Shown piece after piece: positions 9,609-35,076 of a stretch of DNA of 64,000 nucleotides (positions are counted from its first letter, which is position 1; the number at the start of each line of letters is the position of its first letter). A model generated the notes under the pieces. It saw nothing but the letters and a program-made list of their open reading frames with translations, made no database searches and was not told where the DNA came from. This stretch comes from Burkholderiales bacterium (GTDB lineage Bacteria; Pseudomonadota; Gammaproteobacteria; Burkholderiales; Burkholderiaceae_C), in assembly GCA_017302655.1 (NCBI GenBank), contig JAFLDE010000015.1, positions 1-64,000 of the forward strand. The letters run 5' to 3'. A program made the position numbers and the translations under genes.

Positions 9609-9618
9609 ATCAAAGTAA

Positions 9619-9632: not shown

Positions 9633-9910
9633 TTCTTCGGCGCGCTTTTCGAAAGTCAATCCGTTGAGAACCTCGGGATCGATGAGTCGAGTCTCCTTTC
9701 GCAGCCCCCGCTGGCTGGTCGTGAGCGACCCGGAGGGGGACGGCCCGGAGGGGGAGCCGAGTGCCGGGAGTTGCGCGCCCCATGCAGCCGAACCGATGGC
9801 GCGAATGGTTGCGCCGGTTCTTGCAAGCATCTCGCCGGACCGCAGGTGTACAGATTCCGATCGTGGGTGGAGCAGCGCGAAGCTCGGCTTGCCCCTTGCT
9901 CGCGTCAGCC

Positions 9911-12872: not shown

Positions 12873-13017
12873 TGCCTGCTCCTTGGGTGGGCAGGGGTGC
12901 TGGCTGGTGCAGATCGGCGCAGCCGGTTGGCCGTTGGGGCCGTCTTGACGCCCTTGCGCATCCCATTGCGCCAAGCCCTGCGCAGCATGTCTTCAGATGG
13001 GGCGCTTTGCGCTGGGG

Positions 13018-14067: not shown

Positions 14068-14230
14068 GGATATGAGCGAGGTTGCGTCGCAATTGTGAGC
14101 GGTATCTCGTTGAGGCCCATACGGACTCTCCCCATCCGAGCTTGGTACGACTTCGCGCCGCTGGATCACTCGCAGTTATGCAAGGGGGAACCCTTGTTGA
14201 CGCGACGTCACTTGCTTGAAAAGATCCAAA

Positions 14231-14244
14231 TGTTCGCGCTACCA
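14231..14244 (+). promoter_or_regulatory. Probable XylR-type LacI operator between the lacI gene and the CUT1 transporter
   Basis: Plus strand TGTTCGCGCTACCA; the minus strand TGGTAGCGCGAACA matches the consensus half TGNTAGCGC. It sits in the 505-base divergent region, 164 bases from the regulator start and 329 bases from the binding-protein start. The remaining leader (14245-14572) has no gene I can support; it may hold the transporter promoter and an unusually long untranslated leader. Confidence 0.6.
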
Positions 14245-14572
14245 GTGTCTTTAAAGGGACTTGCGCTTCTAGCGCGCGCACCAGATACCCGGCGTCAGAG
14301 CACCCCGTGACCTGTCCTTACACGGGCATCCATGCAGCCCAGGAGACCCCAAATGTGCAGTCCCAGCGCCTCTCCGAGTCGGAGACTGGCCGCCGCCCGT
14401 TGCCAGCAAAGGCTCTGGCATCGATCGGGACCGTCCCTTAGCGCCTTGGGTCAACGGCGCGGACTTTCGCGCTCGTTGGGCCGAGGCCCTTGGAAGAGCG
14501 ATCTTGAACTGCGGGCTGTGCAGGCTTGGTGCTGCTGCCGGGTGCCGGGCGTCAGGGCAATGACTTGAGCGA

Positions 14573-15835
14573 ATGAAGATGCGCAGAAGAAATCTGATGG
14601 CCGCTGCAGGCTGCTTGCCTTGGGCTGTTCGAGCCAGTACCACCGTCCGCTGGTTGCATATAGAGCAGAACAGCGTGGTGGCGGCTTTCTACGAGGCGGC
14701 TGCCAGGGCCTTTGAGGCAGCCACACCGGGTGTGAAGGTGCACCCGCAGTTTCTGGAGAACGAGAGCTTCAAGCGCAAGCTCACCACCTTGCTGCAGTCG
14801 CGCGACCGGCCGCATGTGCTTTACAGCTGGGGTGGGGGTGCGCTTCGTGAGCAGGTGCGAGCGGGCGTGATCGAAGACCTGACCGCGTCGCTCGATCAAG
14901 GGGGGTGGCGCCAGCAGTACAGCCCCATCAGCTTGCTGCCGTATACGGTGAACGGACGCATCTACGGCGTGCCCATGCTGACCAGCCTGGTCGGGTTTTT
15001 CTACAGCAAGCCATTGTTTGCCAAGGCAGGCGTGACGGCGGAAGCCATTCGAACCTGGGACGACTTGCTGGCCGCGGTGAGAAAGCTGCAATCGGCCGGC
15101 ATCACGCCTATGGTGGCTGGTGGGGCCGACAAATGGACCCTGATGTTCTATTGGGCGTTCCTGGCCCTTCGTCTGGGCGGACGCGCGGCGCTCGAACTGG
15201 CCATGCAGGGCAAGACGGTCGATGGATTCGCTGGCCCAAGTTTTGTGCGCGCCGGCGAATTGTTTCGCCAGCTCACGGACATGAGGCCCTTCCAGCCGGG
15301 CTTCCTCGCCGCGAGCTATCCGCAGTCTGCCGGCCAGTTCGGTGACGGCAGGGGCGCCATGATCCTCATGCTGGACCAGTTGCGAACCGCCATGCAATCC
15401 AACGCGGCCAACAAGGTCGGGGTTCCTGACGCGGATCTGGGGTGGTTCCCGTTCCCGACCGTGCCGGGGGGCAAGGGCCACGCGGACGACACGATGGGCG
15501 GCATGAATGGCTGGCTCGTCACCAAGGGGGCGCCGCGCGAGGCCGTCGCATTCTTGCGTTTCTTCCTCTCGCCGGCTTGGCAGCGTCAGGCCGGTGAGAG
15601 CGGTTGGTTCATTCCGGTGACGCCGGAGGCGCGTGCTGCGCTCAACAAGCCACTCCTGCAGCGCATGGCCGAAGCCGTCGGCCGCTCGCCCTATCACCAG
15701 CTTTTCCTGGATCAGTTGCTCGGACCTTCGGCGGGGGCGGTACTGAACGACGTGGCAGCCGACCTGGCCAGCCAACGTCTGACGCCCAAGGCTGCTGCTG
15801 ACCGTGTGCAGGACGCTTTGAGGCAGACCTTGTGA
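14573..15835 (+). CDS. CUT1 sugar ABC transporter substrate-binding protein
   Basis: Periplasmic solute-binding protein (SBP_bac_1 family), 420 residues, delivers oligosaccharide to the permeases encoded directly downstream. The N-terminus (MKMRRRNLMAAAGCLPWAVRA) has twin arginines and a short hydrophobic stretch, so Tat or Sec export is possible. Family-like parts are LPYTVNGRIYGVPML, FFYSKPLFAKAGV and DTMGGMNGWLVTKGAP. The stop is four bases before the first permease. Placement beside the xylan repressor and its operator suggests xylo-oligosaccharides as substrate; this is inference. Confidence 0.9.
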   Translation: MKMRRRNLMAAAGCLPWAVRASTTVRWLHIEQNSVVAAFYEAAARAFEAATPGVKVHPQFLENESFKRKLTTLLQSRDRPHVLYSWGGGALREQVRAGVIEDLTASLDQGGWRQQYSPISLLPYTVNGRIYGVPMLTSLVGFFYSKPLFAKAGVTAEAIRTWDDLLAAVRKLQSAGITPMVAGGADKWTLMFYWAFLALRLGGRAALELAMQGKTVDGFAGPSFVRAGELFRQLTDMRPFQPGFLAASYPQSAGQFGDGRGAMILMLDQLRTAMQSNAANKVGVPDADLGWFPFPTVPGGKGHADDTMGGMNGWLVTKGAPREAVAFLRFFLSPAWQRQAGESGWFIPVTPEARAALNKPLLQRMAEAVGRSPYHQLFLDQLLGPSAGAVLNDVAADLASQRLTPKAAADRVQDALRQTL

Positions 15836-15839
15836 AGCC

Positions 15840-16748
15840 ATGTTTGAATGTCCGGGTTCAGGTTTGCGCCGGAGGCGGGAGGTGAGGGCTGCCTACGCCC
15901 CGCTCTGGCGCAATCAGGCCGGATGGCTGTTGCTGGTGCCAGCGATGCTGTTCTTTACCCTGTTCGTCGTGCTGCCGATGGGAGAGGCGGCCTGGTACAG
16001 CCTTCACCGCTGGAACGGGTTTGGCGACTTGACCGACTTCGTTGGCTTGCGCAATTTCGAGCGCCTGCTGGCTGGCGCGGACTTTCGCACTGCCATGCTG
16101 AACAACGGCCTGGTGATCGCTGTGTCGCTGGCAGTGCAACTGCCGCTTGCGCTGTTGCTTGCACTGCTGTTAGCCGATGCCACGCGCGCCAATCAAGCCT
16201 ACCGCCTGTTGTTCTTTCTGCCTTTCGTGCTGGCGGATGTGGCGGCTGGACTGATCTGGCGCTTTCTGCTCGATGGCGATCAAGGCCTACCGACGCTGAT
16301 GGGTCAGCCAGCGCCTCAATGGCTGGCGGACCCAGTGAGCGCTCGCGTCTGCCTGCTGGGCGTCGTCGTCTGGAAGTACTTTGGCTTTCACATGGTGCTG
16401 CTGATTGCAGCATTGCAAAGCATCGACGGCTCGTTGTACGAAGCTGCACGCATGGATGCCGCCTCCCGTTGGCGGGTGTTCCGCCGCATCACGCTGCCGC
16501 AGCTCGCCCCGACGCTGCGCCTGTGCGTGTTCTTCTCCGTGCTTGGCGCACTGCAGCTCTTCGACCTGGTGATGCCCATCACACAAGGCGGACCGTCGAA
16601 CAGTACGCACACCCTCGTTAGCTTTCTGTACCAGCACGGCGCCACCCGCATGGATGTGGGGTTCGGCAGCGCCGCAGGCGTGCTGCTCTTCTTGTTGTGC
16701 CTGGGTTTTGCGCTGGGCTGGCAACGCTGGGACCGTCGCCGTGCATAG
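15840..16748 (+). CDS. CUT1 sugar ABC transporter permease (MalF/UgpA type)
   Basis: Inner-membrane permease, 302 residues, six predicted membrane segments starting at AGWLLLVPAMLFFTLFVVLP. The conserved ATPase-coupling EAA loop is clear near residue 200 (EAARMDAASRWRVFRRITLP), followed by FDLVMPITQGGPSNST, typical of the family. It starts four bases after the binding-protein gene and overlaps the next permease by eight bases. It needs a MalK-type ATPase, and the only one in the window is at 5864-6916. Confidence 0.92.
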   Translation: MFECPGSGLRRRREVRAAYAPLWRNQAGWLLLVPAMLFFTLFVVLPMGEAAWYSLHRWNGFGDLTDFVGLRNFERLLAGADFRTAMLNNGLVIAVSLAVQLPLALLLALLLADATRANQAYRLLFFLPFVLADVAAGLIWRFLLDGDQGLPTLMGQPAPQWLADPVSARVCLLGVVVWKYFGFHMVLLIAALQSIDGSLYEAARMDAASRWRVFRRITLPQLAPTLRLCVFFSVLGALQLFDLVMPITQGGPSNSTHTLVSFLYQHGATRMDVGFGSAAGVLLFLLCLGFALGWQRWDRRRA

Positions 16749-17565
16749 CCCCTTGCCTTCCTGGGCGCGCCATTGGGTGCTGCTGACCGTGGCTGCATTG
16801 GTGCTGTTGCCATTGCTGGCGACTCTGTTCGGGGGCCTGAAGAGTCTGGGTGAGTTGCGCGCCCATCCCATGGCGTTACCGCAGCAATGGATGTGGAGCA
16901 ACTGGTGGGAGATCCTTCAGGGGCAACGCTACTGGGCACAGATGGGGAATTCGCTGCAGATCGCACTGCTGAGCGTGGGTCTGACCGTCGTGCTTGCGAG
17001 CTTGGCCGCCTTCTCGCTGGCGTTCATGAAGCTGCGAGGGGCCAATCTGCTGCTGGGCTACATCATGTTGGGGCTGATGTTCCCGCTCGCCGCGTCCATC
17101 CTGCCGCTGTTCCTTCGCGTGCGCGACCTCGGCCTGCTGGACTCAGCCTGGGGGGTGGTGCTGCCGCAAGCTGCGTTCGGGTTGGCCACCGCGGTGCTGC
17201 TGCTGAAGAACGCGTTCCAAGCGCTGCCAAGGGAACTGCTGGAGGCGGCCGTGATGGACGCCTGCCCTTGGTGGCGCTGCTGCTGGCGCATCGTCTTGCC
17301 ACTGGCTCGGCCCACCTTGGCGACCGTGGCGGTGCTCAGTTTCGTTGGCAGCTGGAACGCGTATCTGCTGCCCTTGGTGGTGCTGAACGACGACAAGGCC
17401 TACCCCTGGCCACTGGGCATCATGGCCTACCAGGGGGAATACACCACCGACTGGCAGTTGGTACTGGCCTTCGTCACGCTGACCTTGTTGCCGGCCGTCC
17501 TGCTTTTCCTGTTGGCGCAGCGGCACATCGTGGCCGGACTCACCGCTGGAGCGGTGAAGTCATGA
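16741..17565 (+). CDS. CUT1 sugar ABC transporter permease (MalG/UgpE type)
   Basis: Second inner-membrane permease of the transporter, 274 residues from GTG 16741. I chose this start because the frame before it lies inside the first permease gene. Membrane segments begin at HWVLLTVAALVLLPLLATLF, and the EAA loop is LLEAAVMDACPWWRCCWRIV. The C-terminus LAQRHIVAGLTAGAVKS is the usual MalG-type ending that touches the ATPase. It overlaps the first permease by eight bases. Confidence 0.92.
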   Translation: MHSPLPSWARHWVLLTVAALVLLPLLATLFGGLKSLGELRAHPMALPQQWMWSNWWEILQGQRYWAQMGNSLQIALLSVGLTVVLASLAAFSLAFMKLRGANLLLGYIMLGLMFPLAASILPLFLRVRDLGLLDSAWGVVLPQAAFGLATAVLLLKNAFQALPRELLEAAVMDACPWWRCCWRIVLPLARPTLATVAVLSFVGSWNAYLLPLVVLNDDKAYPWPLGIMAYQGEYTTDWQLVLAFVTLTLLPAVLLFLLAQRHIVAGLTAGAVKS

Positions 17566-17911
17566 GCGAAGGCCTGTTGCCCGCTGGATTCGCCGGTCGA
17601 TCGGTCTGCTTGCAGCGGCCTGGTTTGCGGGCAGTTCGGGGCTGGTTGACGAAAAGTGACCTTTCGAGCGGGTCGGCCTCCATTCGCCCATGCATTGGCT
17701 GGCTCCACTGGTGTGGTCCTGCGTGTCACTGGGATCGGCCACGCCTGCGCGCGGTGACGCCACCGCACTGCGTTCGCCCGGACTGCGGCAGCCAGAAGTG
17801 CTACGCCCTGCTCCCAATGGGCAGGCGTTCTGTGCATGGGGCCTCATGAGCAGCGCTCGACGCCACGCATGTTTTGTTAACCCCTGTGAAAACACGGATA
17901 CCCAAAACCTG
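17566..17911. other. Intergenic stretch after the transporter, no convincing gene
   Basis: An ATG at 17562 overlaps the permease stop (ATGA) and opens a 95-codon frame to 17849. Its translation is rich in Arg, Trp and Cys and resembles nothing I know. A second frame starts at 17690 with a signal-like MHWLAPLVWSCVSLG but soon loses protein character. These may be the worn remains of a gene that once ended this operon. AT content rises after 17860, where the receptor promoter begins. Confidence 0.3.
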
Positions 17912-17953
17912 TTGTTCACATAACCTTGCGCCACTAAACAGACAACGTTGTCA
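17912..17953 (+). promoter_or_regulatory. Promoter with LacI-type palindrome controlling the TonB receptor
   Basis: A -35-like TTGTTC (17912-17917), a 17-base spacer and a -10-like TAAACA (17935-17940) are followed directly by AGACAACGTTGTCA (17940-17953). ACAACGTTGT is a perfect palindrome with the central CG of LacI-family sites. It covers the expected transcription start, a classic repressor position. The same site occurs at 31879-31892. The second LacI protein (25238-26260) is the likely binder. The leader to the ATG at 18079 is about 125 bases. Confidence 0.7.
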
Positions 17954-18078
17954 TCCGCGGCGAGACGGGGCGGAGCTCCCTGAATCAGCGGTGGCAGTGA
18001 GTAGAGATGGGGCCTAGGCCAGCCGTGGCAGCCCCTGCAGTCCGGTCGATGTATCCACCCAGCCCGTTGAGGAGACAC

Positions 18079-21000
18079 ATGAACCCCGATAAGTCGCGCG
18101 CCAAGCGGCACCAGCCCCTGCGCACCCCTCGTTCCATGACCCCAGTCGCAGCTGCCTGCGCACTGAGTCTGTACGCGCTGCCTGCATTTGCCCAAGTAGC
18201 GGCTCCGCAGCAACTGGACACCGTGGTGGTGACCGGTATTCGAAAGTCACTGGACACGTCGCTGAACCTGAAGCGCGGTTCGGCGGGTTTGGTGGATGGC
18301 ATCGTCGCCGAGGACATCGGCAAGTTCCCCGACTCCAATCTGGCGGAGTCCCTGCAGCGCGTGGCGGGGGTGTCCATCGACCGCGCTCCGAGCGGGGAAG
18401 GTGCCAAAGTCACCGTGCGTGGAGTCGGTCCCGACTTCAACATGGTGCTGCTCAATGGTCGGCAGATGCCGACTTCGGTCATCAGCAACGAAAACGGCGG
18501 TGCCAACGGCTCGCGCGCCTTCGATTTCTCCAATTTGTCTGCTGACTCGATCTCCGCGCTGGAGGTGTTCAAGACCTCGCGCGCTTCGTCGCCCACAGGT
18601 GGCATTGGCGCCACGATCAATGTGAGGACGGCACGCCCTCTGGACATCAAGGACACCATTGCCTCGATCGGGGTGAAGGCAAACCTGGACCAGTCGAACA
18701 AGCGCCTGCCAACGCCCTTCCAGGGTAGCAACGTCACGCCCGAGGTGTCCGGCATTTACAGCACCACGCTGGCAGACGGCACCATCGGCATCGCCATCAG
18801 CGGTTCCTACTCGAAGCGCGATTCGGGCTCCAACAAGGCCTACACCCAGAACGGCTGGCGCACCTTCACGGCCACCTCGGGTGACTGGGGTGCGGTGCCG
18901 CCCAAGCCGGCCTCCGGCCCCGATCCGATCACCAACCGCCCGACGGGCAACACGCTCTATTCCACCTCGGTGGACATGCGCTACTCCCTCACGGCCATCC
19001 AGCGCGAGCGCATCAACGGCCAGGCTGTCCTGCAGTTCGCCCCGAGCAAGGATCTGAAGATCACGCTCGACTACACGATGGTCGACAACACGCTCAACAA
19101 GAAGAACGCAGAAAACTCGAGCTGGTTCAACTTCTCCTTCGGACCGACCACGTTCACGACGGGTGGTCCGGTGGTGTCGCCGGTCATCCAGACGGCACTG
19201 TTCCCCAACAACGACCACGACTACGCCGTCAACAACGGCCTGTACGGCGAGAAGTCGCAGGTCCGCTCGACCGGCTTCAACACCGAGTGGAAACTGAGCA
19301 GCGCGCTGAAGGTCGAGGTGGACGCACATCATTCGACCTCGGTCACCAAGCCCAACAGCCCATTCGGCACCTACTCGCTGATGGATCTGGCGCTCTTCAA
19401 CGCCGGCAATGCGGTCGCCTACTACGACCAGAAACTGCCCATCCTGAGCCAGCCGACCACGGTCTTCAACCGCGACAAGCTGCAGCTGACGGGTTCTCAG
19501 TTCGTCAACAACCTCAGCGATCAGACGGTCGATCAGTTCCAAACCAGCGCCAGCTGGAAGATGGATGCTGACAACAAGTTGAATGCTGGCTTGGGTTTCA
19601 CGAAGGTGAAAGACCGCCGCGCCAGCTACAACAACCAAAACAACGACTGGGGCGGCGTCGGTGCCCAAGGTGATTACAAGAACGTGGTGACCAACACCAG
19701 CAGCCTTCCCGGCTACTTCAGCGCCATCCCGGGCAGCGGAGACCCCCGGCTGTTCCAGGAGTTCTACCTGTTCGACTTCAACAGCCTGCGCGCCCGGTCT
19801 ATCGAGGTGTTGATGGCTTCGCGCAACATGTCTCGCGCCGCAGCCGAGGCCTATTTCTCGGCCTCGTCCGACTACTCGCTGGGCAACGACTGGCGCACGC
19901 AGGAGAAGTCGACGGCTGCCTTCGTGCAGTGGGATCACGCCTTCGAAACCTCCAATGTCTCGGTGGGCCTGCGCTACGAGAGCACCAAGGTGAGTGCTTC
20001 GTCGCAGGTCGTGTCTCGCACCAGTTCCTCGTGGATCTCGCAGAACGAGATTGCGCTGGGCGCCGGGCCGACGACTTTTGGTGACTCGACCGGCAAGTAC
20101 TCCTACGTGCTGCCTTCGATCGACTGGGACATGGACGTGGCCTCGAACGTGAAGGTGCGTGCGTCCTATGGCGAGAACATTGGCCGTCCGGGTTTTGATT
20201 CCCTGGTCGGCGGCGTCAACGTAGGCGCCAACGCTAACGCAGGTGGGGGCACCGGCAGTACCGGCAACGCCAACCTGAAGCCCCTGCACTCGAAGAACTT
20301 CGACTTCTCGGCCGAGTACTACTACGCCCGCTCCAGCTACCTGGCAGCGTCTGCCTTCTACAAGAAGGTGAGCAACTTCATTGGCACCTCCACGGTCTCG
20401 ACGACGTTGCCGGGCCTCACCACGCCGATCGGTGGCGCGTACTACAACGCGGGCTTGGCGGCTTGCGGCGGCAACACCCAGCCGCTTTGCATCCGCAACT
20501 GGATCTTCACCAACCGGGCCGGACAGCCCGGCGTGGTGCAGACCGGTGTCAACGCCTCCGGAGAAATCCTCGGCACCATCGCCGGCCTGCCGAGCGATCC
20601 CGCGCTGCGCTTCAACATCACCACGCCTTCGAACGAGAAGGGCGACACCATCAAAGGCCTGGAGTTGAACTTCCAGCACATGTTCAGTGGCACGGGCTTC
20701 GGGGTGTCGGGCAACTTCACCAAGGTGAAGACGGGCCTGAAGTACAACGATGCGGATCTCGGCACGCAGGCGGCTTTGGTGGGGGTCAGCGACTCGGCCA
20801 ACTTGGTCGGCTTCTACGAAGACGACGACTGGTCGGTGCGCGCCGCCTACAACTGGCGCGGCGAGTTCCTGGCCGGGAAAACGGACGGCGCGGGCAACAA
20901 CCCGGTGTACGTGGAGCCCTATGGCCAGGTGGATGTGTCGGTGGGCTACAAGATCGGCAAGAACTTGACGCTGCAAGCTGACTTCATCAATCTGAACGAC

Positions 21001-21096
21001 GGCTATATCCGTGCACACAGCCGAACCAAGGAGTCGTTGCAGTCGGTCACGCAGACCGGTCGGCGCTACCTGATCGGCGCACGCTACCGCTTCTAG
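18079..21096 (+). CDS. TonB-dependent receptor, Xanthomonas/Caulobacter carbohydrate type
   Basis: Outer-membrane active transporter, probably for beta-glucan oligosaccharides. 1005 residues from ATG 18079, preceded by GAGGAG. The signal peptide ends ALPAFAQ near residue 39, the TonB box is DTVVVTG (47-53), the plug follows (IGKFPDSNLAESLQRVAGVS, then VRGVGPDFNMVLLNGR), and a 22-strand barrel ends in the aromatic signature YLIGARYRF. This is the family usually found with sugar regulons in Caulobacter and Xanthomonas. The LacI-type operator in its promoter matches that of the transporter/GH1/GH5 operon. It is followed by the SapC-cupin-halogenase set. Confidence 0.93.
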   Translation: MNPDKSRAKRHQPLRTPRSMTPVAAACALSLYALPAFAQVAAPQQLDTVVVTGIRKSLDTSLNLKRGSAGLVDGIVAEDIGKFPDSNLAESLQRVAGVSIDRAPSGEGAKVTVRGVGPDFNMVLLNGRQMPTSVISNENGGANGSRAFDFSNLSADSISALEVFKTSRASSPTGGIGATINVRTARPLDIKDTIASIGVKANLDQSNKRLPTPFQGSNVTPEVSGIYSTTLADGTIGIAISGSYSKRDSGSNKAYTQNGWRTFTATSGDWGAVPPKPASGPDPITNRPTGNTLYSTSVDMRYSLTAIQRERINGQAVLQFAPSKDLKITLDYTMVDNTLNKKNAENSSWFNFSFGPTTFTTGGPVVSPVIQTALFPNNDHDYAVNNGLYGEKSQVRSTGFNTEWKLSSALKVEVDAHHSTSVTKPNSPFGTYSLMDLALFNAGNAVAYYDQKLPILSQPTTVFNRDKLQLTGSQFVNNLSDQTVDQFQTSASWKMDADNKLNAGLGFTKVKDRRASYNNQNNDWGGVGAQGDYKNVVTNTSSLPGYFSAIPGSGDPRLFQEFYLFDFNSLRARSIEVLMASRNMSRAAAEAYFSASSDYSLGNDWRTQEKSTAAFVQWDHAFETSNVSVGLRYESTKVSASSQVVSRTSSSWISQNEIALGAGPTTFGDSTGKYSYVLPSIDWDMDVASNVKVRASYGENIGRPGFDSLVGGVNVGANANAGGGTGSTGNANLKPLHSKNFDFSAEYYYARSSYLAASAFYKKVSNFIGTSTVSTTLPGLTTPIGGAYYNAGLAACGGNTQPLCIRNWIFTNRAGQPGVVQTGVNASGEILGTIAGLPSDPALRFNITTPSNEKGDTIKGLELNFQHMFSGTGFGVSGNFTKVKTGLKYNDADLGTQAALVGVSDSANLVGFYEDDDWSVRAAYNWRGEFLAGKTDGAGNNPVYVEPYGQVDVSVGYKIGKNLTLQADFINLNDGYIRAHSRTKESLQSVTQTGRRYLIGARYRF

Positions 21097-21111
21097 TCTG
21101 ACCGCACCCAC

Positions 21112-21139
21112 ACGAGGGCCGGGGAAACTCGGCCCTCGT
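21112..21139 (+). terminator. Strong hairpin after the TonB receptor gene
   Basis: ACGAGGGCC (21112-21120) pairs perfectly with GGCCCTCGT (21131-21139) around a ten-base loop, 15 bases after the receptor stop. There is no T-run, so it may be an attenuating or mRNA-stabilising hairpin rather than a full stop, leaving some read-through to the SapC gene at 21287. Confidence 0.55.
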
Positions 21140-21286
21140 CGCTTGTGCAGGCCTTCCAGAATCCGGCAGGCGGCAGCCACGGCGCTAGGAATGGAGCGCC
21201 TCACTGGCCGCCGGAACTCAACGCCAACGCTGCCGCGCCCCCTCCTGAACCTGCCATGCGCACGGCCCCCTCCGTCGCTGTAAGCC

Positions 21287-21985
21287 ATGCTCGAACTGCT
21301 CAACAACGTTCAACACCGAGACCTCCGCATCCATTCGCAGCGCGGCGCGGCCTGGGGTGATGCCGTCATGTGCTGCCCGGTCACGCCGGACGAATTCCGC
21401 AGCCTCCAAGCTCATTACCCCATTGTTTTCCAGCCCGATGGCGAAGGCAGCTTCCTGCCAGTGGCGCTGTTCGGCTTGGTCGAAGGCGAGAACCTGTTTC
21501 TAGGCCCTGAAGGCTGGGAGGCGGATTACATCCCCTTGGCCATGCGTCGCATGCCGTTCTCGATCGGTGTGGCAGGCGACGAGCTCCGCATGATGGTGGA
21601 CATGGCCAGCCCTCGTATCGCCCGATCCGCGGCGGAAGGGGAGGCGCTCTTTCTGCCGCAGGGCGGGAACAGCCCACTGCTGGAAGAGGCGAATTCGGTG
21701 CTGCAGGCGCTGCACGAAGGCCTGCAGTCGGGCGCCGAGTTCGTGCGCACCTTGCAGGCGAACGATTTGCTGGAATCCTTCGTGCTCGAGGTCCCTCGCC
21801 CCGATGGCAGCAAGGGCAGCCTGCAGGGCTTCTTCATGATCCACGAAGAGCGCCTGGCCGCGCTCGACGCCGGCACGCTCTCCTTGCTGCATCAGGCGGA
21901 CTACCTGCAGCCGATCTACATGGCCGTGGCGTCGATGTCGCGCTTGGCTGCGCTCGTTCGTGCGCACCTGGCACGCGAGGCCTGA
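21287..21985 (+). CDS. SapC-family protein (PF07277-like)
   Basis: 232 residues, no signal peptide. The sequence has the family pattern: N-terminal LNNVQHRDLRIHS, then FLPVALFGLVEGENLFLG, WEADYIPLAMRRMPF, and a C-terminal ADYLQPIYMAVASMSRL. These proteins occur next to TonB receptors and flavin halogenases in Caulobacter, Xanthomonas and relatives; the biochemical role is not established to my knowledge. Despite the name, I see nothing linking it to the Sap peptide transporter. It overlaps the cupin gene by 26 bases, and the three downstream genes form one translational unit. Confidence 0.85.
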   Translation: MLELLNNVQHRDLRIHSQRGAAWGDAVMCCPVTPDEFRSLQAHYPIVFQPDGEGSFLPVALFGLVEGENLFLGPEGWEADYIPLAMRRMPFSIGVAGDELRMMVDMASPRIARSAAEGEALFLPQGGNSPLLEEANSVLQALHEGLQSGAEFVRTLQANDLLESFVLEVPRPDGSKGSLQGFFMIHEERLAALDAGTLSLLHQADYLQPIYMAVASMSRLAALVRAHLAREA

Positions 21986-22946
21986 GTTGCTCGACGCTGC
22001 GCTGCTGCAGTCCACCGAGCCGGTGCTGCTGCGCGGCTTGGCGGCCGACTGGCCGTTGGTGCAGGCGGCCAAGCGCTCGGATGCGGACTTCTGCGCGCAG
22101 CTGCGGCCCTACGCGGACACGCGAGTCGGCCTGTGGCGCGCACCACCCGCGGCGCAGGGTCGCTTCTTCTACAACGAGGCCTTCAATGGCTTCAATTTCC
22201 AGCGCGAGCTGGCGCGCTTCGGTGGGCTGCTTGACGAGTTGCTGGCCGGCTCACCAGATGCGCTCTACCTGGGTTCCACGGAATTGGACGGCAGCTTCCC
22301 GGGCTTGCGCGCTCAGCACGACTTTCCGCAGCTCGCGACGCTCTCGGGCCGCGACCCGCTGGTCAGCCTGTGGCTGGGCAACCGCGCCCGCGTGGCGCCG
22401 CACTTTGATGTGCCAGACAACGTCGCTTGCGTCGTCGCGGGACGGCGGCGTTTCACTTTGTTCCCGCCGGAGCAATTGCCCAACCTCTACATCGGCCCGC
22501 TGGATCTCACGCCAGCCGGCATGCCCATCAGCCTGGTGGATCTCTCCGCCCCCGATCTGCAGCGCTTCCCGCGCTTTGCGCAGGCACTCGCTCAAGCTCG
22601 CGTCTTCGAACTCGAGCCCGGCGATGCGCTCTTCATCCCCAGCCAATGGTGGCATGGCGTGGAAAGCCTGTCGCCCATCAACGCCTTGGTCAACTTCTGG
22701 TGGCGGCAGAGCCCTGAGTTCATGGACACGCCGCTGCATGCCCTGATGCTTGCGTTGCTGACTCTTCGCGACCTGCCACCTGTGCAACGCCAAGTGTGGC
22801 AGCAGGTATTCGATCACTACGTCTTTGCCGCTGACGAAGCCACGGCCGCGCACATTCCACCCGCCGCGCGTGGTGTGCTAGGCCCGCTCAACGACCCGCT
22901 GGCGCGTTCGCTGCGTGCCTACTTGCTGAACCGCTTGAACCGATGA
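21960..22946 (+). CDS. Cupin-like JmjC-type protein (Cupin_8), probable Fe(II)/2-oxoglutarate hydroxylase
   Basis: 328 residues from GTG 21960. Metal ligands expected for a JmjC hydroxylase are present: H148 and D150 (APHFDVPDN) and H232 (QWWHGVES). The ARVAPHFD and RRRFTLFPPEQLPNLYIGP segments are standard for the family, in which known members hydroxylate protein or peptide side chains. It overlaps SapC by 26 bases and the halogenase by four (ATGA). Substrate unknown. In context I infer a role in modifying a product or protein linked to the TonB receptor. Confidence 0.85.
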   Translation: MRTWHARPELLDAALLQSTEPVLLRGLAADWPLVQAAKRSDADFCAQLRPYADTRVGLWRAPPAAQGRFFYNEAFNGFNFQRELARFGGLLDELLAGSPDALYLGSTELDGSFPGLRAQHDFPQLATLSGRDPLVSLWLGNRARVAPHFDVPDNVACVVAGRRRFTLFPPEQLPNLYIGPLDLTPAGMPISLVDLSAPDLQRFPRFAQALAQARVFELEPGDALFIPSQWWHGVESLSPINALVNFWWRQSPEFMDTPLHALMLALLTLRDLPPVQRQVWQQVFDHYVFAADEATAAHIPPAARGVLGPLNDPLARSLRAYLLNRLNR

Positions 22947-25201
22947 CGCCACTGCTTCCCACTCCCATCCGTCGCATCGTCATCGCCGGAGGCGGCACCG
23001 CCGGCTGGATGGTGGCTGCGGGCCTGGCCAAGTGTCTGGGCCGCCAGTACGACATCTGTCTGGTCGAGTCCGAGGAAATCGGCACCGTTGGGGTCGGCGA
23101 AGCCACGATCCCGACCTTGCACTTCCTGCACGAGATCCTTGACCTTGACGAGCAGGTGTTCATCCGCGCCACGCAGGCCACCTTCAAGCTGGGCATCAGC
23201 TTTGAAAACTGGCGCAACGTGGGTGAGCACTACTTTCATTCCTTCGGACGTACCGGCAAGCCGCACTGGACGGCAGGTTTCCACCACTTTTGGCTGGAAG
23301 GCCGACGACGCGGTGTGGCCAGCGACTACGGCGACTACTGCTTCGAACTGCGTGCCGCGCTGGAACAACGATTCGAGGCCTTGCGCGACGGTGCCATCAA
23401 TTACGCCTACCACTTCGACGCCACGCTGTACGGCCGCTTCCTGCGTGAATACGCCGAAGGCCTGGGCGTCCGGCGCCATGAAGGCAAGATCGCGCAGGTC
23501 CTGCGAGACCCAAGCAGCGGCGCGTTGACAGCGCTGCAACTCCATGAAGGACCGCGCATCGACGGTGACTTTTTCATCGACTGCACCGGGATGCGCGCGC
23601 TGCTGCTCGGCGAAGCGCTGGGCGTGGGTTTCGAGAGCTGGGCCCAATGGCTGCCTTGTGATCGCGCCGTGGCCGTGCAGACCACGCTGGTGGGCGAACC
23701 GCTGCCCTACACCCGCTCCATCGCGCACCCCTGGGGTTGGCAATGGCGCATTCCTTTGCAGCATCGGGTGGGCAACGGCTTGGTCTATAGCAGTCGCCAC
23801 ATCAGCGACGAGGCGGCTCGGCAGGCCTTGCTCGCCAATGTGCAGGGTGAGGTGCTGCGCCAGCCGCGCGTCATCCCGTTCACCCCAGGCCAGCGCGATG
23901 AAGTCTGGAGGCTGAACTGCGTGGCCATCGGCTTGTCCAGTGGATTCCTGGAGCCGCTGGAGTCGACCAGCATCCATCTCATCCAGAAGGGCCTGACCCG
24001 ACTGGTGCAGATGTTCCCCACCGACGGCATCTACCAGAGCGACATCGACGAGTACAACCGCCAGAGCCGGACGGCGATCGAAGGCATTCGCGACTTCATC
24101 ATCCTGCACTACCACGTCAACCAGCGCAGCGACTCCGATTTCTGGCGCCACTGCCGAGAGATGTCGGTGCCCGAGCCGCTGCGGCACCGCATCCAAATGT
24201 TCCGCGACAGCGCCCGCCTGAATGTCTCGGCCGACGAGTTGTTCGCGGAGAACTCCTGGGTGCAGGTCATGATGGGGCAGGGCATTCAACCGGCGGCGCA
24301 CCACCCGATCACGCGACAAATGGAGACACGCGCGCTCGCCGACTTCCTGGGTGAGGTGCGCAAGGACGTGGCACGCAAGCTGATCCAGTTGCCACGCCAT
24401 CAGGCTTTCATCAACACCTACTGCAAGGCCGGCCCGCCGCCCGACACGAGCAGCATGGGTGCTCCAGTGGCATCTGCGTCTCAGCAGCATGCAGCGCCGC
24501 TGTGGCAGCCGCAGCCGAGCGTTCAGACCGTGGAGTTGGAGGGCGGCGCACGGGTTTATGTCGTGGATGACTTTGCTACCGATCCAGCGTCCTTGGTGCG
24601 CTGGGTTCAGGCCCAGCAGGCTGCCTTCCAGTCCGTGCCCGGTCATCCCTACCCAGGGCCGCAATTGTCCTTGCCTGAGCCTTTGGCCAAGCCCCTGGAA
24701 GCCTGGTACCAAAGGCACGCATTGCCGCTCCTGGGCGGGGGGCTTCCGCAGGGTATGAACGCACGTTTCTCACGCGTCCTGCTCGATCCGGCCCAACTCG
24801 ACCCACGCCAGCGCATCTGCCACCGCGACGACTCCGGATTGGCTGCCGACCAGCGCGTGGGTGCACTCGTGCACTACCTGTTTGAAGACGAGCGACTCGG
24901 CGGCACCGTGTTCTTCCGCTCCCGTCTTTCGCAGGAAGACACGGAGCGCCTCTTCCAGGATGCCAATCATCTCGATGCCATGCGCTTCGAGCGGCGGTAT
25001 GGCGTGCCGGCGGCCTACATGACTCAGAGCAATGCACTCTTTGAGGTGATAGGACGTGTGCCGGCCCGCTGGAACCGCGCGGTGTTCTACGACGGCAGCC
25101 TGCTCCATTCCGGGGACATCCAGTGTCCTGCCGCGATGCTGCGGGCGCCCGGTCCTGGGCGGCTCACGCTCAATGGGTTCTTCCAGCGCCGGATGAACTG
25201 A
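22943..25201 (+). CDS. Flavin-dependent tryptophan-halogenase-like protein fused to a DUF6445 (2OG-Fe(II)-like) domain
   Basis: 752 residues, two enzymes in one chain. Residues 1-500 are a flavin halogenase: FAD motif GGGTAGW (16-22), K82 in the position of the catalytic lysine of PrnA/RebH, WQWRIP (266-271, the halogenase WxWxIP signature) and GFLEPLEST (334-342). After a linker (about 485-510), residues 515-752 match the DUF6445 pattern with H627, D629 (CHRDD) and H722 (LLHSGD) plus a late GRLTLNGFF, as in Fe(II)/2OG oxygenases. No partner flavin reductase is nearby. BrvH- and Xcc4156-like halogenases from such neighbourhoods halogenate indoles in vitro; the natural substrate is unknown. 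Confidence 0.88.
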   Translation: MTPLLPTPIRRIVIAGGGTAGWMVAAGLAKCLGRQYDICLVESEEIGTVGVGEATIPTLHFLHEILDLDEQVFIRATQATFKLGISFENWRNVGEHYFHSFGRTGKPHWTAGFHHFWLEGRRRGVASDYGDYCFELRAALEQRFEALRDGAINYAYHFDATLYGRFLREYAEGLGVRRHEGKIAQVLRDPSSGALTALQLHEGPRIDGDFFIDCTGMRALLLGEALGVGFESWAQWLPCDRAVAVQTTLVGEPLPYTRSIAHPWGWQWRIPLQHRVGNGLVYSSRHISDEAARQALLANVQGEVLRQPRVIPFTPGQRDEVWRLNCVAIGLSSGFLEPLESTSIHLIQKGLTRLVQMFPTDGIYQSDIDEYNRQSRTAIEGIRDFIILHYHVNQRSDSDFWRHCREMSVPEPLRHRIQMFRDSARLNVSADELFAENSWVQVMMGQGIQPAAHHPITRQMETRALADFLGEVRKDVARKLIQLPRHQAFINTYCKAGPPPDTSSMGAPVASASQQHAAPLWQPQPSVQTVELEGGARVYVVDDFATDPASLVRWVQAQQAAFQSVPGHPYPGPQLSLPEPLAKPLEAWYQRHALPLLGGGLPQGMNARFSRVLLDPAQLDPRQRICHRDDSGLAADQRVGALVHYLFEDERLGGTVFFRSRLSQEDTERLFQDANHLDAMRFERRYGVPAAYMTQSNALFEVIGRVPARWNRAVFYDGSLLHSGDIQCPAAMLRAPGPGRLTLNGFFQRRMN

Positions 25202-25237: not shown

Positions 25238-26260
25238 TCAGGCCTCGGCGCGCTCTTGCACCGACTGGCGCAACATCAAACGGTGCGGCATCACGATGCG
25301 GCAGGGTTGAGTGTTCTGTCCCACCAGCAGATGCACCGCCCGGGCAGCCATGTCCTCCAGCGGCTGGCGCACGGTGGTGAGACCGGGCCAGACCATGGAT
25401 GCTGCAGGGGCATCGTCGAAGCCGACCACCGACAGGGCTTCCGGCACCTGGTGACCGAGCCGGCGCGCTTCGGCCATCAACCCAAGCGCCATGTCGTCGT
25501 TGGCTGAAAACACGGCGCTGGGGCGGTTGGGCTGGTCCTGCCAGATGCGTGCGGCTGCCACGCCGGACTGGAAGGTGAAGTCTCCAGGCCAGACCCAGGC
25601 GGCCTTGCGACGCGCGGCGCGCAGCGCCGCGCTGAAGCCTTGCTGCCGACGCTGGCTGGCGATTTGATCCGGGGGGCCTTGCAGAAAGCCGATGCGCTGG
25701 TGGCCGGCGTCCAGCAACAACTGGGTGAGTTCGCGCGCCGCCTGAACGTCGTCGATGCCGATGCAACTGCCCTGCAATTCCCGTGGAGAGAGTTTCACGA
25801 TGCGCGTGCCCTGGCGCTGCATGGCTTGCAGAACCTCGGCGTGGTCGCACAGCGGTGGAGCCAAGATGACGCCGTCGGGGCGGAGTGCGGACAGAGAGCG
25901 TTCGACATGCGAGACGAGGTCGGTCGCGCTGGCCTGCAGCGGCTCCACGATGAGGTGATAGCCCAGTTCACGGCATGTCTGTGTGGCACCGCGCTGCAGG
26001 TTGCCGATGAAGGCTGATTGCTCATCGAAGTAGAAGAGACCCACGATGAAGCTGCGCGCGCCTGCCAGAGCCCGAGCGCTGAGCTTGGGCCGATATTGCA
26101 GGCGCTCGATCGCTTCTTTGACCCGCTTGAGTGTCTCCTCATGCACACCGGGCTCGGCGTTGACGACGCGCGATACGGTCTTGATGGAGACCTGGGCCTC
26201 GCGCGCGACGTCGATGATGGTTGCCGGCCCACCGGCTTCGCGTTTCGTCATGCGCGGCAT
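25238..26260 (-). CDS. LacI-family transcriptional regulator, probable beta-glucan/cello-oligosaccharide repressor
   Basis: 340 residues. Helix-turn-helix ATIIDVAREAQVSIKTVSRV, hinge YRPKLSARALAGARS, and an effector domain ending GFDDAPAASMVWPGLTTVRQP. It is 36 bases downstream of the GH5 gene on the same strand, the last gene of the transporter-GH1-GH5 operon. It probably binds the ACAACGTTGT palindromes at 17940 and 31879, giving autoregulation and control of the TonB receptor; that is inference from position. A start at ATG 26251 is also possible. Confidence 0.88.
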   Translation of the reverse strand: MPRMTKREAGGPATIIDVAREAQVSIKTVSRVVNAEPGVHEETLKRVKEAIERLQYRPKLSARALAGARSFIVGLFYFDEQSAFIGNLQRGATQTCRELGYHLIVEPLQASATDLVSHVERSLSALRPDGVILAPPLCDHAEVLQAMQRQGTRIVKLSPRELQGSCIGIDDVQAARELTQLLLDAGHQRIGFLQGPPDQIASQRRQQGFSAALRAARRKAAWVWPGDFTFQSGVAAARIWQDQPNRPSAVFSANDDMALGLMAEARRLGHQVPEALSVVGFDDAPAASMVWPGLTTVRQPLEDMAARAVHLLVGQNTQPCRIVMPHRLMLRQSVQERAEA

Positions 26261-26296: not shown

Positions 26297-27340
26297 TCAG
26301 CGCGGCTGCGCGGTGTCTGGGCCGAACAGGGCCTGGTAGAGAGGCTCCCGCCACTGCCGCCGCTCCGGGTCATAAAAGCCGTAGCCGGCCGAGAACTCCC
26401 AGTACAGCCAAGGCAATCCACGTTCCTTCATGAGCTCGCGCATCGTGCGGGTGTAGCGCAGCCGCGCAGCAGGCGGCGCTTTGCTGTAGGCCCCCCACTC
26501 GCCCACAAAGAAGGGGTATCCGCGACGCTCCTGGTCTTGCACGGCCAGGTCGAGCATGCGGGCCATGTGCGCGCGTTGCGCAGCGTCGCAGCAGTCCAGA
26601 CCTGTGGGTTTGCGCGGCTCCACCCATTCCGCACCCTGGTGCGTGAAGTCAAAGGGCTCGTAGTGGTGAACGGTGAGGATGAGGTGCGGGTCGGGCGGCA
26701 ACTGCAGTTCGGGCAGTGCCGTCGCGGCGTTCCAGTGGGTGGGCCCGATCACCACCAGTCGCGTCGGGTTGCTGGCCCGGATGACGCCGAGGGCTTCACG
26801 CAGCAGGTCGTTCCAGCGTGCCGTGAGCCGACCATGGGGCTCGTTGTAGACCTCGAACAGCAGGCGGGGGCTGCGCTGTGCGAAGTGTTGTGCCACTTGG
26901 CGCCAGATGGACAGGAAGCGTTGCTCCACCACCGCGTCGTCCACACGGGTCTCGCCTGGGTCCAGGGGATCGCCGTCCAGTTGGCGGTAATGGTGTAGGT
27001 TGAGGATGACCACGACGCCGCGTGCCAGCAGGCGGTCCACGACACCGGTGATGCGCGTGATGAACGCGGGGTCGATGCGCGCAGCGGAATCGGTGCTGGC
27101 GTGGTTGCTCCAGCGCACCGGCAGGCGAACGCTGCGAATCGGCGTGCCATCGCCCACGCGCTCGAAGTAGTCGTCGGTCAGGCGCAGGCCCCAGGCACCC
27201 TCCTGCGGGGCGTCGAAGATGTTTCCGAAGTTGACCCCTTGGCCGATGGCGCGGGCCATTTCATGTGCGGCTTGCGAGCCTTGCGCCAGCGCGGTCAACG
27301 GTGCAAGGGTGAACACCAGGGCAGCCAGGAGCTCATGCAT
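26297..27340 (-). CDS. GH5 endo-glucanase (cellulase family)
   Basis: Cleaves beta-1,4-glucan or a related beta-linked chain. 347 residues from ATG 27340, preceded by GGGAG. The signal peptide ends LAPLTALAQ near residue 20, so it is exported. Acid/base E167 (VYNEPHG), nucleophile E281 (FVGEWGAY), VRLPVRW and LNLHHY are all as expected for GH5. There is no carbohydrate-binding module or linker. The start overlaps the end of the GH1 gene by eight bases. Earlier in-frame residues lie inside the GH1 gene and are excluded. Confidence 0.92.
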   Translation of the reverse strand: MHELLAALVFTLAPLTALAQGSQAAHEMARAIGQGVNFGNIFDAPQEGAWGLRLTDDYFERVGDGTPIRSVRLPVRWSNHASTDSAARIDPAFITRITGVVDRLLARGVVVILNLHHYRQLDGDPLDPGETRVDDAVVEQRFLSIWRQVAQHFAQRSPRLLFEVYNEPHGRLTARWNDLLREALGVIRASNPTRLVVIGPTHWNAATALPELQLPPDPHLILTVHHYEPFDFTHQGAEWVEPRKPTGLDCCDAAQRAHMARMLDLAVQDQERRGYPFFVGEWGAYSKAPPAARLRYTRTMRELMKERGLPWLYWEFSAGYGFYDPERRQWREPLYQALFGPDTAQPR

Positions 27341-28712
27341 TCGCAGCTCCCTGGCGCGTGGCTTGCGCGGTGCGCCGGTACCAATCGAAGCTGGCCTTGG
27401 GCGTGCGCTGTTGGGTGGCGTAGTCCACGTGCACAAGGCCGAAGCGCTTGGCATACCCGCTGTCCCATTCGAAGTTGTCCATCAGGCTCCAGGCGAAATA
27501 GCCTCGGATGTCGACGCCTTCTGCCTTGGCTTCGGCCAGCGCCTGAAGGTGTCTGCGCAGGTAGTCCACGCGCTCCAGATCCTGCACCTGGCCATCGACC
27601 ACCTGGTCCGCGTTGGCCATGCCGTTCTCCATGATGTAGATCGGTGGCAGCGGGTATTCGCGCTGCAGGCCCACGAGCAGTTCGCGCAGTCCGTCGGGGT
27701 AGATCTCCCAGCCCATGTCGGTGCGGCCCAGTTCGGCGGGCGGCGGCAAGCCGTCCTGGCTCACCCACAAGCGGGTGTAGTAGTTGATACCGAGGAAGTC
27801 GAGCGGTTGTCGAATCAGGGCCATGTCACCTTCGAGCGCCGTGGGCTGCACGAAGCCGTCCAACTGCGGGTAGCGGCCCAGCAGCAGGGGGTCCATGAAG
27901 CGGCGCACGAACTTGGCGTAGGCCAGGTCGGCGGCGGGCTGGTCCTTGGGCTTGGCGGCGCTGCGGCTGCTCTGGTTGAGCACGATGCCCAAGGGGCACT
28001 TCACGCCGGCGGCGCGCAGCGCCTGCAGCGCCAGCCCGTGTGAAAGCAGCAGGTTGTGAGAGACCTGTACGGCGGCCACTTGATCGCGCCATCCTGGTGC
28101 GAACTGGCCGGTTTCATGCCCGAGCACGGCGGTGCACCAGGGTTCGTTGTGGGTGGCGAGCGAGTGCATGCGATCACCGAAGAGGCGGCCCATGCGCTCG
28201 GCGTACTCCGCAAATCGCTGCACGGTCACGCGCGACAGCCAGCCGCCCTCGTCTTGGAGCGCCTGAGGCAGGTCCCAGTGGTACAGCGTGGCATGGGGCT
28301 GAATGCCGGCATCCAGCAGGGCATCAATGAGGCGGTCGTAGAAGGCAATGCCCTTGTCGTTCCAGGCGCCATGACCGAGTGCCTGCACGCGGGGCCAGGC
28401 GATGGAGAAGCGGTAGGCGTCGATGCCGAGCTGGCGCATCAGCGCCACGTCCTGCGGCCAGCGGCGGTAGTGATCGCAAGCCTGGCTGCCGTCATCACCG
28501 TTGCGCACCTTGCCTGGCGTGGCACAAAAGCGATCCCAGATCGACTCGCCGCGTCCATCGGTCTGGTTCGCGCCTTCGATCTGAAAGGCAGCCGTGGCCA
28601 CGCCCCATGTGAAGCGCTGTCCCAGTTGCTGCAGGGTTTCCGGCGCTGGCAGGCTCAGGCCTGAGGGAGCGGTGGGCACGTGCGCGGCGGCCGAGATGTC
28701 AAGCATGGACAT
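27333..28712 (-). CDS. GH1 beta-glucosidase
   Basis: Hydrolyses cellobiose and cello-oligosaccharides to glucose. 459 residues, normal for GH1: FTWGVATAAFQIEG near the start, acid/base in THNEPW (E190), nucleophile in YIMENG (E362, where I/VTENG is most common), and the WSLMDNFEW aglycone region. No signal peptide, so cytoplasmic, consistent with import of intact oligosaccharides by the adjacent transporter. It lies 44 bases after the permease gene and overlaps the GH5 gene by eight bases. Confidence 0.95.
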   Translation of the reverse strand: MSMLDISAAAHVPTAPSGLSLPAPETLQQLGQRFTWGVATAAFQIEGANQTDGRGESIWDRFCATPGKVRNGDDGSQACDHYRRWPQDVALMRQLGIDAYRFSIAWPRVQALGHGAWNDKGIAFYDRLIDALLDAGIQPHATLYHWDLPQALQDEGGWLSRVTVQRFAEYAERMGRLFGDRMHSLATHNEPWCTAVLGHETGQFAPGWRDQVAAVQVSHNLLLSHGLALQALRAAGVKCPLGIVLNQSSRSAAKPKDQPAADLAYAKFVRRFMDPLLLGRYPQLDGFVQPTALEGDMALIRQPLDFLGINYYTRLWVSQDGLPPPAELGRTDMGWEIYPDGLRELLVGLQREYPLPPIYIMENGMANADQVVDGQVQDLERVDYLRRHLQALAEAKAEGVDIRGYFAWSLMDNFEWDSGYAKRFGLVHVDYATQQRTPKASFDWYRRTAQATRQGAANA

Positions 28713-28756: not shown

Positions 28757-29599
28757 TCAGCCTTTGACGGCGCCCGCAGCGAGGCCCGCAATCAAGCGGC
28801 GAGAGAAGAACACGAAGAGAAGCAGCAGCGGCATGACAGTGATGGCTGCACCTGCGCTCAGTGCGCCGACCGTGGCACCTGTGGTGCCCTGCAGCGAGCG
28901 CAGCACCAGGGGCACGGTGAATACATCCTGGTCGCGCAGCACCAGCAGAGCACCGACGAAGTTGTTGTACTGGCCGATGAAGGTGATCAGACCCAGCGTG
29001 CCGAGGGCCGGTCCAAGCAGGGGCAGCACCACGCGCCAGAAGATCTCGAACTCACCGCAACCGTCGATGCGCGCGGCATCGATGAGCTCGCGGGGTACGG
29101 CGCTGCGCACGTACTGGCGCATCATGAAGATGCCCAAGGCGCCACAGGCGCCGGGTATGACCAGCGCCTTGGCGCTGTCGATCCAGCCCAGCTGCTGCAT
29201 CAGCATGACGGTGGGGATCATGCTGAGGAAGCTCGGCAGCAGCATGGTCGCGAGGATGAATCCGAACAGCGCTTCCTTGAATCGGAACTCGAGCAGCGCG
29301 AAGGCGTAGCCGGCGAGCGCGCAGAAGAACAGATTGAGCAGCGCCGTGAGCCCCGCGATCCAGAGCGAGCGCCACAAGGCCGACCAGAAATGCGGCCGCC
29401 GCTCGATCAGGTCGTTGACATTGGCGCCGAGCTGGTCTCCGAACCAGATGGGCGGTGGCATGGAAAGAATCTCGGCACTGCCATGGGTGGCGAACACCAG
29501 CATGGTGTAGAACGGCGCGAGCATGATCAACGCGCCCAGCCCTACCAATAGGTAGGTCAGCGGCGCCGTCAGCCGTTCAGTCCTTGGGCTTGAGAACAC
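28757..29599 (-). CDS. CUT1 sugar ABC transporter permease (MalG type)
   Basis: 280 residues, six membrane segments beginning TYLLVGLGALIMLAPFYTML. The EAA loop is ELIDAARIDGCGEFEIFWRV and the C-terminus RRLIAGLAAGAVKG is the usual coupling end. It starts with GTG 29599, inside the end of the partner permease (23-base overlap). The first residues are poorly conserved, so a slightly later start is possible. Substrate probably cello-oligosaccharides, from the GH1/GH5 context. Confidence 0.92.
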   Translation of the reverse strand: MFSSPRTERLTAPLTYLLVGLGALIMLAPFYTMLVFATHGSAEILSMPPPIWFGDQLGANVNDLIERRPHFWSALWRSLWIAGLTALLNLFFCALAGYAFALLEFRFKEALFGFILATMLLPSFLSMIPTVMLMQQLGWIDSAKALVIPGACGALGIFMMRQYVRSAVPRELIDAARIDGCGEFEIFWRVVLPLLGPALGTLGLITFIGQYNNFVGALLVLRDQDVFTVPLVLRSLQGTTGATVGALSAGAAITVMPLLLLFVFFSRRLIAGLAAGAVKG

Positions 29600-31878: not shown

Positions 31879-31892
31879 TGACAACGTTGTCT
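31879..31892 (-). promoter_or_regulatory. LacI-type operator of the transporter-GH1-GH5-LacI operon
   Basis: TGACAACGTTGTCT, a near-perfect palindrome centred on ACAACGTTGT (31881-31890), identical at the core to the site in the receptor promoter at 17940. On the minus strand a possible -10, TCTAAT, follows it immediately; no good -35 is visible, so the operator probably lies inside the promoter. Two exact copies at the heads of two units with related function are strong support for one regulator. Confidence 0.75.
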
Positions 31893-35066: not shown

Positions 35067-35076
35067 GTCGATTCCT

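Follow-up and report, generated by a model that had tools for sequence, protein, structure and literature searches.

A TonB receptor-linked halogenase and oxygenase gene unit in a putative glucan-uptake regulon of a Burkholderiales bacterium

Why should genes for a predicted halogenase and two oxygenase-like domains follow the gene of a TonB-dependent receptor? The question is raised by positions 18079-25201 of a 64,000-nucleotide stretch from a Burkholderiales bacterium (assembly GCA_017302655.1, contig JAFLDE010000015.1, positions 1 to 64,000; hereafter the window), in which the receptor gene is followed on the same strand by genes encoding a SapC family protein, a JmjC-type cupin and a predicted flavin-dependent halogenase (HalA) fused to a DUF6445 domain (Table 1). 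An original prediction, made from the sequence alone, had proposed these four open reading frames (ORFs), and all four were recovered where it had placed them, with matches to the expected families. The best explanation of the data reported here is that they may constitute a receptor-linked modification module within a LacI-type glucan-uptake regulon.

The principal evidence is the recurrence of the same neighbours in other genomes. A survey of 150 genomes sampled from the phylum found SapC in 60, DUF6445 in 6 and a Trp_halogenase match exceeding the cut-off in 60; the 15 genomes with a strong halogenase, defined as a Trp_halogenase match of at least 140 bits, formed the association sample. 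A receptor of the TIGR01782 type lay within 10 kb of 51 of the 58 strong halogenases, versus 2.5 expected under uniform placement, and was on the same strand in 39 of these 51 cases. The other families were also concentrated within this distance of the 58 halogenases (SapC 17 versus 0.74 expected, Cupin_8 27 versus 0.77, DUF6445 9 versus 0.41). Viewed from the opposite side, 14 of 27 SapC genes were found within 10 kb of a strong halogenase, as were 35 of the 87 listed receptors; the receptor counts are lower bounds, the 87 being those listed above the cut-off when part of the candidates in each genome was scored. The association is thus far above chance, contrary to the chance-level neighbourhood statistics that the original prediction had named as its refutation, and the unit is conserved and non-random. 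That these companions recur beside TonB receptors, a pattern originally stated for Caulobacter and Xanthomonas, was confirmed across genomes and in named loci; the Caulobacter control genome gave matches to Trp_halogenase, SapC, Cupin_8 and TIGR01782, as family matches irrespective of gene order, and none to DUF6445.

Gene order was compared in loci found by similarity to the fusion protein, the best 80 of 333, a sample that over-represents relatives of the fusion. The fuller unit recurs in the order receptor, HalB (a second halogenase), SapC, JmjC, HalA and, in some loci, DUF6445; the window copy has no HalB. Among these 80 loci a receptor was found in 76, SapC in 72, a cupin in 77, HalB in 56 and DUF6445 in 32, the last either fused to the halogenase (26) or separate (6), and of the four loci that lack a receptor, three are short contigs (5-6 kb). 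The fused loci belong to Roseateles, Pelomonas, Paucibacter, Rubrivivax and related bins, and HalB is missing from 10 of the 26, as it is from the window copy. In another set, of 9 DUF6445 genes, that of the window is the only fusion; the fused form belongs to one lineage, the two genes being separate as a rule. The four genes of the proposed unit stand; the HalB of the fuller unit, the lineage-specific nature of the fusion and a hairpin described below were absent from the earlier account. As for the reported overlaps among the last three genes, the 4-base one (ATGA) was verified and the 26-base one depends on a GTG start at 21960, with a TTG at 21987 as the alternative; the receptor gene lies in a longer ORF with a start at 18007.

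Other copies vary in composition. The genome that contains the window has four further strong halogenase genes: a HalB and a HalA in a unit on contig C2, a third next to a different receptor that has a cupin, and a fourth on contig C66, accompanied by an unfused DUF6445. The C2 unit, at 873-14590 of locus L016 (C2:48001-67000), is a further complete unit, which includes HalB and has its HalA unfused, situated beside a LacI gene, a solute-binding protein (SBP) gene and a gene of glycoside hydrolase (GH) family 16, with TGAAAGCGCTTTCA at 2300 and 6601. The possibility that C93 (SapC) and C66 (halogenase, DUF6445) represent the two ends of one operon was not supported, no cupin fragment having been found on either contig. 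Annotated plasmids carry related arrangements: receptor, SapC, cupin, halogenase, GH16, LacI, major facilitator superfamily transporter and GH3 in Sphingobium; receptor, halogenase and a divergent DUF6445 in Catenovulum; and receptor, DUF6445 and halogenase beside a GH43 gene in Sphingomonas sanguinis, where this small unit occupies 5408-10509 of locus L247 on plasmid pNP2-R2, typed as mobilizable.

HalA of the window carries GGGTAGW at residue 16, K82, GWQWRIP at 265 and E340 within LEPLEST, corresponding to the flavin motif, the WxWxIP motif and the catalytic Lys and Glu by which a flavin-dependent halogenase is predicted; in HalB, WRIP and EPLEST are replaced by WDI[GA] and EPLEAS. Across 195 halogenase ORFs the catalytic Lys and the catalytic Glu were each kept in 190 and lost in 5. 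Two halogenase-like ORFs lacking the catalytic Lys and Glu motif (L084, 5981-7714; L061, 12041-13528) are neighbours of normal halogenases. The closest solved sequences to HalA are Xcc4156 (6y1w, E 7e-198), 9luq and BrvH (6frl, E 7e-135). The indole halogenases Xcc4156 and BrvH share the halogenase motifs of HalA, and the window enzyme differs from them in its fusion to DUF6445 and its described gene context. According to the reports on Xcc4156 and BrvH (PMC7336383, PMC5945002), both enzymes brominate indoles in vitro, do not accept free tryptophan and are missing the binding site for its amino acid part; their native substrates are given as unknown, and a peptide is proposed as a possible substrate.

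The bromination of indoles by these nearest characterised enzymes would fit a unit whose product is a diffusible halogenated aromatic, an indole or another, serving as a signal or weapon when sugar is present. We consider this improbable: HalA tracks the receptor even within one genome (see below), which a common metabolite leaves unexplained, and the window contains no non-ribosomal peptide synthetase (NRPS) condensation domain (polyketide synthase and export genes were not searched for). The absence of NRPS and flavin reductase genes nearby, noted in the original prediction, was reproduced with no PF00668 or PF01613 match in the window; elsewhere in the genome there are one and two such matches, respectively. 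Two flavoproteins which we take to modify Trp residues of partner proteins, QhpG and LodB, are only distantly similar to the halogenase and serve solely as a precedent for protein-Trp modification. Scores against their models (25.3 and 15.9 bits) are far under the respective cut-offs (240 and 400 bits), so the window halogenase is a member of neither group.

Both remaining enzyme domains are predicted oxygenases. The cupin contains H148-F-D150 and, at 230, W-W-H (H232), an H-x-D ... H metal triad within a cupin/JmjC domain that marks it as a putative JmjC hydroxylase, and its closest sequences in the PDB are JMJD5 and FIH, at E-values of 13-17 orders of magnitude. In DUF6445, an H-x-D, a second H and an Arg are invariant in 9/9 sequences, and the structural model (pLDDT 91.6) matched 2-oxoglutarate (2OG) oxygenases by fold, with 23 hits at E up to 0.001, headed by a PHD2 structure that contains a HIF peptide (E 3e-5; TM-scores 0.48 and 0.53). 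The triad, the candidate 2OG-binding Arg and the modelled double-stranded beta-helix make DUF6445 a likely 2OG/Fe(II) oxygenase of the prolyl-hydroxylase type, and back the earlier proposal of a second 2OG-type domain in the fusion. The resemblance to FIH and JMJD5 is thus one of sequence, and that to the prolyl hydroxylases one of metal motif and predicted fold, with TM-scores of only about 0.5; the window proteins differ from all of these in being bacterial and operon-borne beside a receptor.

SapC was modelled with high confidence (pLDDT 96.2) and had no PDB match, either by fold at E up to 0.001 or by sequence (best E 0.94). Its lack of resemblance to solved folds, together with the few halogenase-like members devoid of catalytic Lys or Glu, would suit enzymes that chiefly aid or quality-control the biogenesis of the receptor, by binding or by sensing redox state, with catalysis secondary. 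The retention of both catalytic residues in nearly all halogenase ORFs and of the metal triad and Arg in every DUF6445 sequence argues against this, and we rate it the least probable of the explanations considered. SapC genes also occur elsewhere: among 20 SapC loci without an adjacent receptor unit, in which ORFs were picked roughly (SapC itself being missed in at least four) and other neighbours were mixed, HlyD-type secretion genes recur in four (L227, L229, L231 and L235), all with SapC genes but no halogenase, and in L231 an RTX protein gene follows SapC. The link of these loci to HlyD-type secretion genes or an RTX protein is suggestive only.

How is the unit connected to sugar metabolism? 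The proposal that a palindrome shared with the GH1/GH5 operon places the unit in a glucan regulon was supported. The sequence GACAACGTTGTC has two exact sites in the whole 4.43 Mb assembly, both in the window, one upstream of the receptor gene and the other about 70 bases before the SBP gene that heads the opposite operon, whereas shuffled windows contained a mean of 0.00 (100 shuffles). With at most one mismatch, the same palindrome precedes the receptor gene in 16 of 24 relatives with the fused enzyme (9 exact) versus 3 of 48 unfused ones, while a different palindrome, TG.AARCGYTT.CA, was found in 21 of 48 unfused loci versus 0 of 24 fused and also occurs at the second unit on C2, beside its LacI and GH16 genes. 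Since the operator type differs between loci, the enzyme unit appears to travel with the receptor while the operator changes. The claim that a single promoter serves all four genes was not supported, as a simple sigma-70 scan of 17560-18100 returned no promoter-like site and a strong hairpin sits between the receptor and the enzyme genes.

This hairpin, 3' of the receptor stop codon, lies in a region (21094-21180) that folds with a z of -3.29, and no terminator-like site was detected at it. Perfect stems of at least 8 pairs within 120 bases after the receptor stop were present in 40 of 75 named relatives, the corresponding figures being 2.45% for shuffled sequences and 12 of 750 for windows taken within receptor genes. 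It is the position of the stem rather than its sequence that is kept, because the hairpin sequences of 24 relatives differ; we infer a processing or attenuation element favouring the receptor over the enzymes. A precursor gene for a ribosomally synthesized and post-translationally modified peptide was considered and rejected, since the interval between the receptor and the next gene ranges from an overlap to 258 bases in the fused relatives listed and leaves little room; small ORFs were not searched.

What, then, might be modified? The reading that we tentatively place first, with considerable reserve, is that the enzymes oxidatively modify or halogenate the receptor or another surface protein. 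When sugar is present, a LacI-type regulator would release both operons, and the receptor would be made together with the enzymes, in a ratio possibly set by the hairpin. The enzymes would do their work in the cytosol, before the still unfolded receptor, or some other surface protein, is exported; a cytosolic site is suggested because, judged by hydropathy only, the N-termini of SapC, the cupin and the fusion are not signal-peptide-like, whereas that of the receptor is. SapC would hold or present the client protein. HalA, drawing its reduced flavin from a general reductase, would halogenate Trp or some other electron-rich aromatic side chain; like FIH and JMJD5, the JmjC protein would hydroxylate a side chain; and a further hydroxylation would come from DUF6445, acting as a 2OG oxygenase akin to the prolyl hydroxylases. 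The outcome may be a glycan-binding surface that is tuned or protected.

The original prediction had also allowed for modification of an imported aromatic decoration. In such a scheme the enzymes would oxidise or halogenate the ligand imported by the receptor, such as an aromatic-bearing oligosaccharide or glycoside, before cleavage by GH1/GH5-type enzymes. GH1 enzymes often cleave aromatic glycosides, the operator is common to the unit and the GH1/GH5 operon, and a common ligand would likewise produce co-variation with the receptor. This option fits less well, and we regard it as unlikely, because the glycoside hydrolases nearby are of many kinds: those recorded near the loci, among the first 25 of 105 and the first 25 of 96 families listed, include GH13, GH3, GH16, GH5, GH67, GH1, melibiase, GH97, GH10 and GH42, with no single aromatic-bearing glycan evident among them, and halogenation of a food molecule has no obvious use. 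The underlying Pfam scans covered 70 and 75 ORFs from a selection of 311 near 39 loci, with 437 around the named loci unscanned. Given this diversity and the change of operator between loci, the constant partner of the enzymes is the receptor.

Co-variation is in keeping with such a partnership. Distances between HalA and receptor sequences at 103 loci were correlated with r 0.924 (0/999 shuffles), a value that includes shared host ancestry, and within five genomes having at least three loci each r was 0.557 (25 pairs, 10/999 shuffles). On the receptor tree, linkage to the unit changed 9 times versus a mean of 36 for shuffled labels, a clustering that the sampling favours and the best-80-of-333 selection of named loci inflates. 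Modification of the receptor or another surface protein is further favoured, by analogy, by the peptide substrate suggested for Xcc4156 and BrvH, the similarity of the cupin to JMJD5 and FIH and the fold match of DUF6445 to PHD2 with its HIF peptide.

It is also favoured by some of the 7 of 58 strong halogenases that have no TIGR01782 receptor. One of these, on C66, starts 328 bases from a contig end, and another (G147:C3) has a different TonB receptor directly upstream. In G131 (L088, 10269-19900; L244) a halogenase with a divergent DUF6445 lies about 1 kb upstream of an open frame that exceeds 6,000 residues and matches DUF11 and RTX, in G143 (L234, L245) a frame of more than 6,600 residues is found beside the SapC gene, 5.5 kb from the halogenase, and in G126:C5, which has SapC and DUF6445, a Calx-beta/PKD protein is encoded about 5 kb beyond DUF6445.

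Several results nevertheless weigh against modification of the receptor itself or of a surface protein in general. The co-variation cannot tell receptor from ligand as the target. Aligned columns were compared between linked and unlinked receptors in a first set of 33 versus 51 and a second of 58 (from 107, reduced at 70% identity) versus 51, and in neither was any Trp column shared by every linked receptor yet rare among the rest; Trp content in the first set was 1.27% in linked and 1.31% in unlinked receptors. The strongest columns overall were D439, T353 and R152. Trp columns enriched in linked receptors (W676, 35/58 versus 3/51; W548 and W373, 45/58 versus 15/51; W950, 44/58 versus 13/51) are weak evidence at most, because their distribution is that of the SapC-type clade: receptors linked to SapC, which are largely one clade, have many residues in common, among them the near-diagnostic W676 (34/37 versus 4/72) and R1006 (37/37 versus 6/72). 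No near-invariant Trp was lost in the receptors of loci without HalB (14 versus 11 receptors). The best columns of that comparison (S504, 14/14 versus 3/11; T873; Y639, 11/14 versus 1/11) were dismissed as a signal of HalB loss, since the testing of many columns on a tree can yield as much, and 44/51 unlinked receptors have Y639 too. With no Trp column in all linked receptors and none lost with HalB, a receptor Trp was rejected as a demonstrated target. As to the exceptions, the first 2361 residues of the G143 frame gave no Pfam match, G115 and G127 (2 of the 7) showed no surface-protein partner near the halogenase, and the giant-protein cases are weak, being few and noticed after the fact. 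Thus the receptor variant of the oxidative or halogenating modification first proposed fits gene order and co-variation, but no shared or HalB-dependent receptor Trp speaks for it; the targets may lie in unalignable receptor loops or be other residues.

A broader interpretation, which we consider possible but doubtful, is that of a dedicated bacterial system that would halogenate and hydroxylate surface proteins before export, with SapC as client-handling factor, covering TonB receptors and, at few loci, giant RTX-type proteins.

The remaining features of the locus are compiled in Table 1. The minus-strand series runs from the SBP gene through two ABC permeases, GH1 and GH5 to LacI. Immediately upstream of the receptor, 14573-17565 on the plus strand holds another SBP gene (PF01547) and two ABC-permease-like ORFs, and an ORF with molybdopterin cofactor-binding domains (32841-35165, minus strand) adjoins the glucan operon.

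Table 1. Features of the receptor-linked unit and the adjoining operon (window coordinates)
Feature	Position	Strand	Basis or remark
Operator palindrome upstream of receptor gene	17941-17952		Exact match to GACAACGTTGTC
TonB-dependent receptor, TIGR01782 type	18079-21096	+	Pfam/NCBIfam: Plug and TonB barrel; TIGR01782, 588 bits
Hairpin 3' of receptor stop codon	21112-21139	+	10 perfect Watson-Crick pairs, no T-run
SapC family protein	21287-21985	+	PF07277, 219 bits
Cupin_8/JmjC-type putative hydroxylase	21960-22946	+	PF13621, 228 bits
Halogenase-DUF6445 fusion, 752 residues	22943-25201	+	PF04820, 616 bits, residues 11-461; PF20043/DUF6445, 212 bits, residues 523-747
HalA halogenase domain of fusion	22943-24472	+	About residues 1-510
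DUF6445 domain of fusion, predicted 2OG/Fe(II) oxygenase	24509-25183	+	H627, D629, H722, R740
LacI-family regulator, last gene of opposite-strand operon	25238-26260	-	Profile match
GH5 (Cellulase family) enzyme	26297-27454	-	Profile match
GH1 enzyme	27333-28712	-	Profile match
ABC permease	28757-29599	-	
ABC permease	29577-30602	-	
Extracellular SBP, heads GH1/GH5/LacI operon	30565-31809	-	
Second operator copy, before SBP gene	31880-31891		Exact match to GACAACGTTGTC

No recognised description of the module was found in the open-licence PubMed Central (PMC) literature, subscription papers being outside the scope of the search. Clusters of this kind carry the SEED-style annotation 'Pass1-related protein', a term for which a search of the same literature found no paper. 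The closest known arrangement is that of carbohydrate utilization loci containing TonB receptors (CUT loci), described in PMC1790865; like them, the window combines a receptor, degradative glycoside hydrolases, an inner-membrane sugar transporter and a sugar regulator, here with a common operator, and it adds to them the enzyme module. In the main text of that paper the words 'halogenase', 'SapC' and 'cupin' do not occur. New here are the 2OG-oxygenase motif and predicted fold of DUF6445, a confident SapC model unlike any solved fold, the co-variation of HalA with the receptor, and the hairpin that is often present between receptor and enzymes.

The locus can thus be described as a CUT locus with an added enzyme module, which would represent a new kind of modification system if surface proteins are indeed its substrates. 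For the families involved, DUF6445 gains a likely biochemical identity as a 2OG oxygenase, and SapC stands out as a protein of confidently predicted fold with no solved structure alike. For the Xcc4156/BrvH group, the receptor linkage narrows the search for native substrates to a few co-induced proteins or ligands, and pre-export modification of surface proteins, if true, would be the native role of these orphan halogenases.

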